Shown here in pieces: positions 2,881 through 48,094 of a stretch of 64,000 nt of DNA (the first letter of the stretch is position 1; each line of letters opens with the position of its first letter). Below the pieces are notes generated by a model that ran no database searches, was not told where the DNA came from, and worked only from the letters and a program-made list of their open reading frames with translations. The stretch is taken from contig JAJYSZ010000004.1 of the NCBI GenBank assembly GCA_021793315.1, positions 1 to 64,000 on the forward strand, in the 5' to 3' direction. The translations under genes and the position numbers were made by a program. Origin of the DNA: Bacillota bacterium. Lineage in GTDB: Bacteria; Bacillota; Sulfobacillia; JAJZYS01; JAJYTV01.

Positions 2881-3930
2881 GTGGCGGTCGCGGACGCCCG
2901 AGGCATCGCACGGGAGCTTCTGGACTGGTTTTCGCATGACGGCCGCGACCTGCCCTGGCGCCGTCCGCCGCGCACGCCATATCGCGTGCTGGTGGCCGAA
3001 ACGATGCTGCAGCAGACGCGGGCCAGCGTGGTGGCGGCACGCTTCGAGGCCTTCCTTCATCGCTATCCGGACTTCGCCACTCTGGCGGCCGCGCAGCTCG
3101 ACGACGTGCTGCGCGCGTGGGAGGGCCTCGGCTACTACCGCCGGGCGGAGGCGCTCTGGCGCACGGCCGGCCTGATCGCGGCAAGGGGCCAGATGCCCAC
3201 CGAACGCGAGGAGCTGCTCAAGCTGCCGGGCATCGGGCCCTACAGCGCGAGCGCCTTGCGGAGCTTTGCCTTTTCCCTTCCCGATCCGGCGCTTGACGCG
3301 AATCTGCGACGCGTCGCCCTCCGGCTCGCCGGCGACCGCACGGACCCGCTGCGGGCCCCTGCGCAGCAGAGGGCGCGCGGCCTTCTCGCGGACGTCCTCG
3401 CCGCGGGACCTCCGGCAGACCTGAGTGACGCGTTGATGGATCTCGGCGCCATGGTCTGCACGGCCCGCCGGCCGCGCTGCGACGACTGTCCCATCGAGAG
3501 ATGGTGCGCCGCGAACAAGAGCGGCGAACCGGAGGCGTTTGGCCGTCCGGCGGCGCGGTCCGCACGCCGGGAACTTCAGATCGTCGCTCTCAGGGTAGAG
3601 TCCGAGCAGGGAGTGCTCTGGCGGCCTCGACCCGCGACGGGCTTGCTCGCTGGCCTTTGGGAACCGCCGCACCTGCTTGCCCCGGAGCAGCCAACCGAGA
3701 CGGCGATCTTGGCCATGCTGCGGGAGTGGGGCGTGCAGGGAGCCCGGGACACGGGCGAGCGCTGGCCGATGTCGCACGCCTTCACGCATCAGAAGTGGTT
3801 CGGGGAGGTGCGGCGCATCGAGGCGGACGCTGTGCCCCCTGCGGCGCCGGCACGCTGGCTCGATCCGCATGGACTCGCTGCCGTCGCATTGCCCAGCGCC
3901 TTTCGCGCAGTTCTCTCGAGGGGATGGTGA
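2881..3930 (+). CDS. mutY: A/G-specific adenine glycosylase
   Basis: Hh[21 protein letters not shown], Fe-S loop [17 protein letters not shown] (C-x6-C-x2-C-x5-C), C-terminal NUDIX-like domain. Confidence 0.9.
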
Positions 3931-3931
3931 G

Positions 3932-4255
3932 GTGGTGGAGATCGAGGAGTTCGGCGCTTGGGCCGTCAGCTGGGCCGAAGAGCACGGCGGGCTCTGGTCC
4001 GTGCAGGAAAATCTGGTCCGCCTAACAGAAGAGGTGGGCGAGATCGCGCGGCATGTCAACGCGCAGAGCGGACGCAAGCACCTGGCCGCCGATGCGGAAC
4101 CTGCCGCGGGCGAGCTGGGCGACGCGCTCTTCGTGCTCGCGCTGCTTGCGCACCAGCTCGGTACCAGTCTCGATGCCGCCGTGCGGGAGGTCCTGCGCAA
4201 GCAGGAGCGGCGCGGTGAGCGCCTGGAGGACGGGGGGACCCGACATGAGGGATGA
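3932..4255 (+). CDS. MazG-like nucleotide pyrophosphohydrolase
   Basis: [17 protein letters not shown]...[17 protein letters not shown]-x-G-E / D metal-binding pattern. Confidence 0.75.
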
Positions 4256-6227
4256 CGCGCAGTCGTTCGCCCACCTGGAGATCGCCTGGCGACCTGACGA
4301 GGCCCAGCGGAAGGAATCTGTGCTCGGCCGCTTCCTGGCGGCGGAGGGGCTCCGTGACGTGGCGGAGCTCTCGGCGCGTGCGGCGCGGGACCCGGAGTGG
4401 TTCTGGGACGCGAGCGTGCGGAGTCTCGGCATCGCGTTCCAGACGCCATACAGCCAGGTGCTCGACCTGTCGCGTGGCCGGGAGTTTCCCCTCTGGTTCC
4501 GCGGCGGTCACTTCAATGTCGCTCATGCCGGGATCGACGTGCATGCGGCGGGAGAGCACGGCGGGGTCACCGCCCTCGCCTGGGAGGGCGAGGACGGCGA
4601 GGTGCGGCGCCTGACGTTCAGGGAGCTTCAGGGCGCGGTCGACGAGATCGCCTCGGGTCTGCAAAAGATCGGCATCGCCCAGGGCGACGCGATCGGCGTC
4701 TACCTGCCGATGCTGCCGGAGACGATGATCATCGCCTACGCGGCCGCCAAGATCGGGGCGATCCTGGTGCCCACGTTCTCCGGTTACGGCGCCGAGGCGG
4801 TGGCGACCCGCCTGCGCGACGCCGGCGCAAAGCTGCTGGTGACAGCCGACGGGTTCTGGCGCCGCGGCCGGCCCATCGCCATGAAGGAGACGGCCGACGA
4901 GGCCGCGCGGCTTGCGCCGAGCGTTGAGCACGTCGCCGTGGTGCGTCGCCTCGGGCGCGACGTGCCTTGGCAGGAGGGCCGGGACATCGACTGGGCAGAC
5001 CTGGGGCGGCTGGGGCATGGCAGCATGACGACGCCCCTCCTGGATCCCGAGACCACCCTGATGATCATCTACACGTCGGGTACGACGGGCCGGCCCAAGG
5101 GTGCCGTCCACGCCCACTGCGGCTTCCCGGTCAAGGCGGCCCAGGATCTTGCGCACGCCTTTGACGTCCGTCCGGGTGACCTCCTCTTCTGGTACACCGA
5201 CATGGGCTGGATGATGGGACCGTGGGCCATCTACGGCGCGCCGCTCCTTGGGGCCGGCGTCATGCTCTACGAAGGTACGCCGGACCATCCCGGCCCTGAT
5301 CGGCTCTGGCAGATCATAGCCCGGCACGGCGTGACCCATTTTGGCATCTCGCCCACGGCCGTACGCAGCCTGATGCCGCACGGTGCGGAGCCGGTGCGGC
5401 GCTGGCCGATGCCGAAGCTCAGGGTGCTCGGCTCGTCCGGCGAGCCCTGGAACCCTGATCCCTGGCGCTGGTTCTTCGAGGTGGTCGGCGGCAGCCGGCT
5501 GCCGATCATCAATTATTCCGGCGGCACGGAGATCTCGGGCGGCATCGTCGGCTGCTTTCCCACAGAGCCGATCAAGCCGTGCTCGTTCCGAGGTCCGATC
5601 CCGGGCATTTCGGCTGACGTCGTCGATGCGGACGGCCGCAGTGTGCGCGGCGAGGTGGGCGAGCTCGTGCTGCGTTCCGTGTGGCCGGGGATGACACGCG
5701 GGTTCTGGCAGGACGACGCGCGTTACCTCGAGACGTATTACGGCAGGATCCCTGGCGTCTGGTACCACGGGGACTGGGCCTACGTCGACGACGACGGCTT
5801 TTGGTACATCCTTGGGCGATCGGACGACACGATCAAGGTTGCAGGCAAGCGGGTCGGCCCGGCGGAGGTGGAATCCGCGCTCGTCGGCCATCCCGACGTC
5901 AAGGAGGCGGCGGCGGTCGGCCAGCCAGACCCGCTCAAGGGCGAGACGATCGCGTGCTTCTGCGTCCTGCGCGAAGGCGCGACACCTGGCGAAGCGCTTG
6001 TGGATGCGCTCAAATCGCAGGTGGCGGGGGTGCTCGGCAAGTCCCTGCGCCCGAGCGCGATCGTGTTCGTCGACGAGTTGCCGCACACGCGCAACGGCAA
6101 GATTCTCAGGCGCCTCGCGCGTCAGGCTTACCTCGGGCAGCCGCTCGGCGACCAGAGCGCGCTCGAGAACCCTGCGGCGTTGGCAGCCCTGGAAGCCGCG
6201 GGCGGGGGGCGGAACACGCACGGATGA
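4245..6227 (+). CDS. acetyl-CoA synthetase / AMP-dependent ligase
   Basis: AMP-binding motif [57 protein letters not shown]-terminal RNGKILRR. Confidence 0.9.
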
Positions 6228-6305
6228 ACGATACGGACCATATGTCCCTCTGCCTGGGTAATAAGGACCCAAGGCAATGAGCCGTCCGTCTGCGCAGTAG
6301 AAGGG

Positions 6306-6379
6306 CCACTCGCCGATATGTAGGTCGTTTGCCGAGACGCACACTGGTCCTGTCGGCAAACGCTTTTATCGGGGAGTGG
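6306..6379 (+). promoter_or_regulatory. nested inverted repeat in 5'UTR, predicted to sequester the ribosome-binding site
   Basis: Outer arms CCACTCGCCGATA (6306-6318) / TATCGGGGAGTGG (6367-6379, 12 of 13 pair); inner arms CGTTTGCCGA (6326-6335) / TCGGCAAACG (6353-6362, perfect). Confidence 0.5.
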
Positions 6380-6383
6380 ACTC

Positions 6384-6968
6384 ATGCCTCACATCTCACG
6401 ACTTGCGAAGATGACCCTCACGGCTGTCGGTGTTCTTTCTCTCACGGCCCTGGCGGCCGGTTGCGGCCAGCAAACGGCCGCAGGCACTGCCCATGCGGCC
6501 CCTCCGGTTAAGTACCACTTTTACGAGACCATTCTGACAGGCGGCATGACCGGCAAGCCGGGCTGGCCGGAGTTCACGCCGGCCGACTTCACGCTGCCCG
6601 CCAACGCGGACGTGACCATGACGATCACGAGCTTCGACGATGGCGCGGCCGCCGTGCCGGCGCAGTACGGCAAGGTCTCCGGCACCACCGGCGGCGACGA
6701 GACGATCAACGGGCAGAGCGCAACGCAGGTGGCCGTCGCTCAGGTGGCGCACACCTTCACGGTCTCGGCCCTCAACCTCAATGTGCCCATTCCGGTCGCC
6801 AAGTCGGCCCAGGATCCGGCCGTGGTGACCTTCTCGTTCCACACGCCGAAGAGCGGAGTCGACACCTGGCAGTGCTACGCGCCGTGCGGTAGCGGCAGCT
6901 CCGGCTGGGGCGGTCCGATGGCGACCGACGGCTACATGACGGGTAAGGTGACGTTCTCGAACGACTGA
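6384..6968 (+). CDS. cupredoxin-like secreted lipoprotein
   Basis: Lipobox LAAGC; AHTFTV (His) and C-terminal WQCYAPCGSGSSGWGGPM, resembling a Cu-binding loop. Confidence 0.65.
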   Translation: MPHISRLAKMTLTAVGVLSLTALAAGCGQQTAAGTAHAAPPVKYHFYETILTGGMTGKPGWPEFTPADFTLPANADVTMTITSFDDGAAAVPAQYGKVSGTTGGDETINGQSATQVAVAQVAHTFTVSALNLNVPIPVAKSAQDPAVVTFSFHTPKSGVDTWQCYAPCGSGSSGWGGPMATDGYMTGKVTFSND

Positions 6969-6983
6969 GTTGGGGGCCCGGCT

Positions 6984-7011
6984 GGCCCGATCGGTGCGAA
7001 TCGGTCGGGCC
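6984..7011 (+). terminator. rho-independent terminator-like hairpin
   Basis: ggcccgatcggt-gcga-atcggtcgggcc then gttcgcttt. Confidence 0.65.
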
Positions 7012-7224
7012 GTTCGCTTTGCGACCGCGGCAAGAGGCCCAGAGCGGCGGCTCCGAACGGCCGTAAGGGACACCGTGCAAATGGACGTATAAATGACAGC
7101 ATGGGTCAGGTAAACGGTGCCGGACAGACTATGGAGTTTCGGTGCCTTTGCCCATCTAGCAAAGTCGCGCCGCCTGCGACAATGAGGCCGTCGAGGAAAT
7201 CTCGTGAGGGGGAGCAGAATCAAA

Positions 7225-7872
7225 ATGATCAACGTGAAGGGTGGTCGCCTCGCAGTCGCAGCCGCGGTCGTCGGTGTCGCAAGCCTTCTGATCGCCGGTT
7301 GCGGACAGCAGCAGGCCGCTGGCAACGCTTCGGCCGCCAGCAAGCCCAAGACGTCGACCACGGCGTCGACGCCGGCTCCGCAGAGCGTCTCGTACAACTG
7401 GGAAGTCGTGGCCGGCGGCAACGCCCAGCACTCAGACTGGCCGTTCTTCTCGGAGGATGGCAAGAACCCGATGCCCGCAACCGTGACGCTGCCGGCGAAC
7501 GCCACCATCACGCTGACGATCAAGAACTACGATGACGGCGGCGGAGACGTCCCGGCGACCTACGCCAAGGTTTCTGGCACGGTCGGCAACACCGAGACGG
7601 TCAACGGCAAGCAGGCGTCCTCGTTCTCGGCGAACGGCGTCATCGCCCACACATTCACCGTCAGTGGGCTCGGCCTCAACATCCCGCTCATCGCGGCGAC
7701 CGACCAGGGCAGCACGGTGGTTCCGTCGGTGACGGTCGTGACGTTCAAGACGCCGGCCAAGGCGGGCACCTACAGCTGGCAGTGCTACCAGCCCTGCGGC
7801 ACCGGTTCGGACGGCTGGGGCGGCCCGATGGTCACGCCGGGCTGGATGATGGGGTCTGTCCAGATCCAGTAG
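7225..7872 (+). CDS. cupredoxin-like secreted lipoprotein, paralog of 6384-6968
   Basis: Lipobox LIAGC; AHTFTVSGLGLNIPL...SWQCYQPCGTGSDGWGGPMVTPGWMMG. Confidence 0.65.
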   Translation: MINVKGGRLAVAAAVVGVASLLIAGCGQQQAAGNASAASKPKTSTTASTPAPQSVSYNWEVVAGGNAQHSDWPFFSEDGKNPMPATVTLPANATITLTIKNYDDGGGDVPATYAKVSGTVGNTETVNGKQASSFSANGVIAHTFTVSGLGLNIPLIAATDQGSTVVPSVTVVTFKTPAKAGTYSWQCYQPCGTGSDGWGGPMVTPGWMMGSVQIQ

Positions 7873-48045: not shown

Positions 48046-48094
48046 GCATGCGAGGAGCGGACCGGGCTTTGTGCCCCGTCCGCTCCTCGCATGC
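48046..48094. repeat. long perfect inverted repeat (intergenic hairpin)
   Basis: gcatgcgaggagcggac (48046-48062) / gtccgctcctcgcatgc (48078-48094). Confidence 0.8.

Follow-up and report, generated by a model that had tools for sequence, protein, structure and literature searches.

The gene that starts at position 6384 of the window, by which we mean the whole 64,000-nucleotide stretch of DNA analysed here, is preceded by a long hairpin that holds the gene's Shine-Dalgarno (SD) sequence in its 3' arm. In our computations this hairpin forms, buries the SD in three species, is under purifying selection in both stems and loops, is present in a single copy, and loses its constraint where the gene is lost. 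Because the hairpin sequence is kept in four species and SD burial is strong in three of them, the element could plausibly act as a switch or brake on production of the gene 1 protein. The reading we prefer, though tentatively and with slightly less than even confidence, is that the gene 1 transcript carries a genus-specific hairpin in its 5' leader, which reduces the initiation of translation or gates it. The features on which the argument draws are as follows.

6257-6278, + strand: putative promoter region, GGGTAATAAGGACC...GGCAAT (GGGCAAAAGGGACC...GATAAT in G003), from species comparison only
6306-6318, + strand: 5' arm of the outer stem, CCACTCGCCGATA, from repeat match and predicted fold
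6319-6325, + strand: 5' side of the internal loop, TGTAGGT, nearly invariant
6326-6335, + strand: 5' arm of the inner stem, CGTTTGCCGA, with CGTTTGC invariant in four species
6336-6352, + strand: terminal loop region, GACGCACACTGGTCCTG, conserved about as well as the stems
6353-6362, + strand: 3' arm of the inner stem, TCGGCAAACG, with GCAAACG invariant in four species
6367-6379, + strand: 3' arm of the outer stem with the SD inside, TATCGGGGAGTGG, from repeat match and predicted fold
6371-6376, + strand: SD (GGGGAG) of the gene at 6384, sequestered according to the opening-cost computation
6384-6968, + strand: gene 1, CuA/cupredoxin-like lipoprotein of 194 aa with lipobox LAAGC, His123, CxxxC and Met
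7228-7872, + strand: gene 2, tandem paralogue of gene 1, its own upstream region (7085-7227) conserved across two genera

The nested stems described in the sequence-only reading lie exactly where it had placed them: the arms of the outer stem pair with one mismatch and those of the inner stem perfectly, and the two stack into a single extended hairpin with a minimum free energy (MFE) of -45.9 kcal/mol (fold of 6300-6400). None of 200 dinucleotide shuffles was as stable (z -4.96). When stability was corrected for GC content, the 80-nt hairpin ranked 19th among 12,784 overlapping 80-nt windows taken on both strands (z -4.4); raw MFE alone sets it less apart, as 306 windows equal or exceed its stability. 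The centroid structure equals the MFE structure, a single unbranched hairpin without a junction pocket. No competing alternative fold was found in the predicted ensemble, so no switching partner is visible.

Several other features of the window deserve mention. Two very strong inverted repeats, at 48046-48094 (22 nt, 95% complementary) and 1781-1844 (27 nt, 78% complementary), are among its most stable predicted hairpins. On the minus strand, a 767-aa open frame at 4056-6359 runs antisense to an acetyl-CoA-synthetase-like gene and is probably a high-GC shadow frame. Within the hairpin itself, A6318 and the internal loop TGTAGGT together spell an ATG TAG start-stop (6318-6323), which is conserved in the genus, reads GTG TAG in G005 and is lost in the pseudogene leader of G002; the sole SD-like sequence for this AUG UAG is about 13 nt off and not well placed.

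The SD lies 7 nt ahead of the ATG at 6384. Opening it is predicted to cost 16.0 kcal/mol, the highest value among the 61 open reading frames of the window that served as baseline, their starts picked automatically (next highest 11.0, median 6.0), which bears out the earlier claim that the gene's only SD is hidden in the 3' arm. A stem that pairs with the SD, and is much costlier to open than is usual for genes of the window, is what the gene 1 leader shares with known SD-sequestering leaders, such as translational riboswitches, thermometers and protein-repressed leaders. Unlike those, it has no known sensor domain, alternative fold or covariation, and the sequestration does not extend to all relatives. 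The cost is 11.5-13.5 kcal/mol in G001 and G003, giving 11.5-16 kcal/mol for these two and the window (G000) together. It falls to 4.4 kcal/mol in G005, the most diverged species, where it is ordinary for these genomes and like that of an average gene, and to 4.3 kcal/mol for the orthologue in G007, of a neighbouring genus; in distant actinobacterial homologues it is mostly low (0.8-9.7 kcal/mol). Strong burial is thus found in G000, G001 and G003 and not in G005 or G007. We would class the hairpin leader as a genus-restricted example of an already known kind, with a predicted function.

In the mechanism we propose, the leader would be transcribed with the gene 1 mRNA from a promoter at about 6257-6278, with transcription starting at about 6285; a sigma-70 scan of the region gave no consensus promoter match, and we infer this promoter-like region from its counterpart in other species. 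The leader would then fold into one long hairpin with the SD in its 3' arm, and ribosome binding would be strongly reduced unless the hairpin were opened. Translation would be lowered or gated as a result, by either a conditional switch or a fixed brake, and the conserved loops may be read by some putative factor.

A leader that sequesters the SD and carries a conserved internal loop could also be an RNA thermometer, as the sequence-only reading had suggested among its options, or a riboswitch. The predicted energetics speak against a thermometer: even at 55°C the SD takes about 12 kcal/mol to open, and at 70°C 8 kcal/mol, so the stem would not melt in the physiological range. The single unbranched hairpin, with neither a junction pocket nor a competing fold, likewise argues against a riboswitch, as do the accessible SD in G005 and the lack of an Rfam match, and we consider both very improbable. 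A search of the window against Rfam 15 at the gathering threshold returned 0 matches, and at a permissive threshold the region 6200-7300 gave only sub-threshold matches, none of them on the hairpin. The hairpin therefore belongs to no known riboswitch or leader family in Rfam 15, as had been supposed from the sequence, and literature searches for such a leader found nothing.

The inner stem is followed by CUUUU, and this terminator-like arrangement could act as a transcription attenuator: the inner hairpin is stable in three species (-20.1, -19.0 and -13.7 kcal/mol in G000, G003 and G005, respectively) and precedes a U4 tract in each. However, the tract has only four U, and a terminator scan found no match, although its loop limit excludes a hairpin of this shape. 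The outer stem is coaxial with the inner and extends it rather than offering an alternative pairing; there is consequently no antiterminator, and we give attenuation only a slim chance.

Evidence for constraint on the element comes from its relatives. The leader accompanies an intact gene 1 in four species of one genus: G000 (the window), G001 (L006), G003 (L005) and G005 (L007). Compared with the window, the hairpin of G003 has diverged by 9%, against 32% at 4-fold sites, and that of G005 by 25%, against 52%. As the hairpin changes more slowly than 4-fold sites, it has been subject to purifying selection. The G002 copy of gene 1 is a frameshifted and gapped pseudogene, whose hairpin (32% diverged) has fared no better than the spacer beside it (30%), so the constraint on the leader goes with the gene. 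Judged by these divergences, the hairpin is under selection and tied to gene 1. Around this pseudogene (L067, G002:C398, about 3500-4190), gene 2 and the acetyl-CoA-synthetase-like gene upstream appear undamaged.

This constraint is not confined to paired positions. All four species with an intact gene 1 share the half-sites CGTTTGC and GCAAACG without change, the internal loop TGTAGG is intact, and the terminal loop has changed at 2 of 17 and, in G005, at 3 of 17 positions; the loops are therefore about as well conserved as the stems. Conservation of both suggests recognition of the sequence, by a protein or other factor acting on RNA or on DNA, and that of the loops is as compatible with a site recognised by its sequence, in RNA or in DNA, as with a simple lid on the SD.

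The evidence for selection on the hairpin structure itself is mixed. G001 is identical to G003 over the hairpin, which leaves only three distinct intact sequences and low power, and among these we found no two-sided compensatory change at any hairpin pair. The seven substitutions in G003 leave a fold more stable than 96% of random placements. The G005 leader, in which 9 of the 28 pairs compared fail (one gap counted), does not exceed random mutants (p 0.32) or shuffles (z -0.98) in stability. The plus strand folds more stably than the minus strand in G000, in G003 (and so in G001, identical here) and in G005. The sequence-only reading had named missing compensatory changes in homologues as a result that would tell against it; with none found and SD burial absent in G005 and G007, the outcome of this low-power covariation test is neutral to negative. 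Its proposal of translational control by RNA structure thus holds up in part: the burial in the window and its two close relatives and the purifying selection favour it, while the lack of compensation and the weak burial in G005 and G007 do not.

The main rival to translational control, which we regard as rather unlikely but worth weighing, is a DNA operator, an option that the sequence-only reading had named as well. Here CGTTTGC-N23-GCAAACG and its flanks would bind a transcription factor in a region common to the tandem paralogues, and the hairpin and SD burial would be by-products. Conservation at the level of sequence, loops included, without compensation is what an operator would produce, and its half-sites are the invariant ones. 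However, an operator would have to lie downstream of the predicted transcription start, by about 40-75 bp, and it gives no reason for the plus strand to fold better than the minus strand. The exact site also gives no sign of a regulon: a search for the exact half-sites found it a single time in each genome of the genus, and once in G011, about the control rate, rather than before several genes.

The hairpin has no further copy in the 3.5-Mb genome and so does not behave as a repeat element of the REP or MITE kind. A covariance model of it, run over 154 genomes of the class and also over 15 genomes of the order, recovered at E below 0.01 only the four leaders of the one genus, always before gene 1. 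A further match in G003 (G003:C87, L078; E 0.011) appears to border an unrelated coding frame on its upstream side, and we treat it as a chance hit.

The region upstream of gene 2 (7085-7227) also bears on the operator. It contains the strongly conserved blocks GGACAGACTAT..TTTCGGTGCCTTTGCCC and CCTGCGACAATGAGGCCGTC in two genera and is probably a regulated promoter; its consensus RNA structure is not credible (-6.96 kcal/mol over 148 columns), as would be expected if the conserved unit were DNA. The upstream regions of genes 1 and 2 align colinearly in several species pairs (p<0.001 to 0.003 against dinucleotide shuffles, the best of 40 comparisons made), suggesting, as a lead only, that the tandem copies may share an ancestral regulatory region. 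If true, this would favour a DNA-level regulatory region, with the hairpin of gene 1 built in later. Against this, a profile of the gene 2 region found no match to the gene 1 leader, so homology of the two regions rests on the pairwise alignments.

It could also be that the hairpin is a constitutive 5'-end structure shielding the mRNA from RNases, the overlap with the SD being incidental. In ompA-type 5' stabilising stem-loops, a stable hairpin stands in the leader of an envelope-protein gene, and the gene 1 leader shares both traits; it differs in having conserved loops and in enclosing the SD within the stem. Such a role would suit the G007 orthologue (L008), which, in the other genus, has a stronger, perfect 18-bp hairpin, different in sequence, in a similar part of the leader, with the SD outside it. 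This inverted repeat (CCGTTCGGCCCCATGGAC / GTCCATGGGGCCGAACGG, L008 4900-4965) has a further inverted match just upstream. However, a stabiliser could do without a conserved loop sequence, and what it gained would be offset by an SD buried at 16 kcal/mol. With a weak hairpin in G005 and only a putative transcription start, we find this explanation improbable.

The gene 1 product is a probable secreted copper protein. It has no Pfam match at E 1 or better; a profile of 14 gene 1 relatives gave a weak match to the CuA domains of cytochrome oxidase (E 0.016), and the structures nearest to its AlphaFold model (mean pLDDT 71) in Foldseek were ba3-oxidase CuA, nitrous oxide reductase and rusticyanin (E 2e-4 to 1e-3). 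To have called the gene cupredoxin-like was broadly right, since its best fold and profile matches, weak as they are, are to the CuA domains of cytochrome oxidase and to rusticyanin. Like rusticyanin and the CuA domain of cytochrome oxidase subunit II, the product has a predicted cupredoxin fold, and its HTF, CxxxCG and GxM regions align with those of CuA (profile E 0.016; Foldseek E 2e-4). Unlike CuA, it is a lipoprotein without a Pfam match above cut-off, and the CuA histidine after CxxxC is replaced (CGSGSSGWGG stands in its place). The invariant His, CxxxC and Met residues would fit a copper site.

Gene 2 has only a sub-threshold Pfam match, to Cupredoxin_1, and the lipoprotein family formed by the two genes is below the cut-offs of both Pfam and NCBIfam. 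The lipoproteins at 6384-6968 and 7228-7872, which have CxxxC and Met but lack the second CuA histidine, thus possibly represent an undescribed CuA-like family. The nearest relatives of gene 1 are in uncultured Bacillota metagenome-assembled genomes (MAGs), and actinobacterial MAGs contain more distant relatives. Our guess, given the type of MAG and of protein, is an acid-mine-drainage habitat.

It is tempting to speculate that the leader represents a class of cis-regulatory RNA that is new and confined to the genus: its conserved internal (UGUAGG) and terminal (GAyGCAmACUGG) loops would bind a putative factor, or sense metal or redox state, and an uncultured Bacillota lineage would in this way free the SD of its CuA-like electron-transfer lipoprotein. 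We consider this a long shot. Regulation would be of an ordinary kind if the element proved to be no more than a DNA site or a fixed brake. If the leader does gate translation of a copper electron-transfer lipoprotein, an uncultured bacterial lineage would have an RNA-based control point, so far uncharacterised, in its electron-transfer chain.
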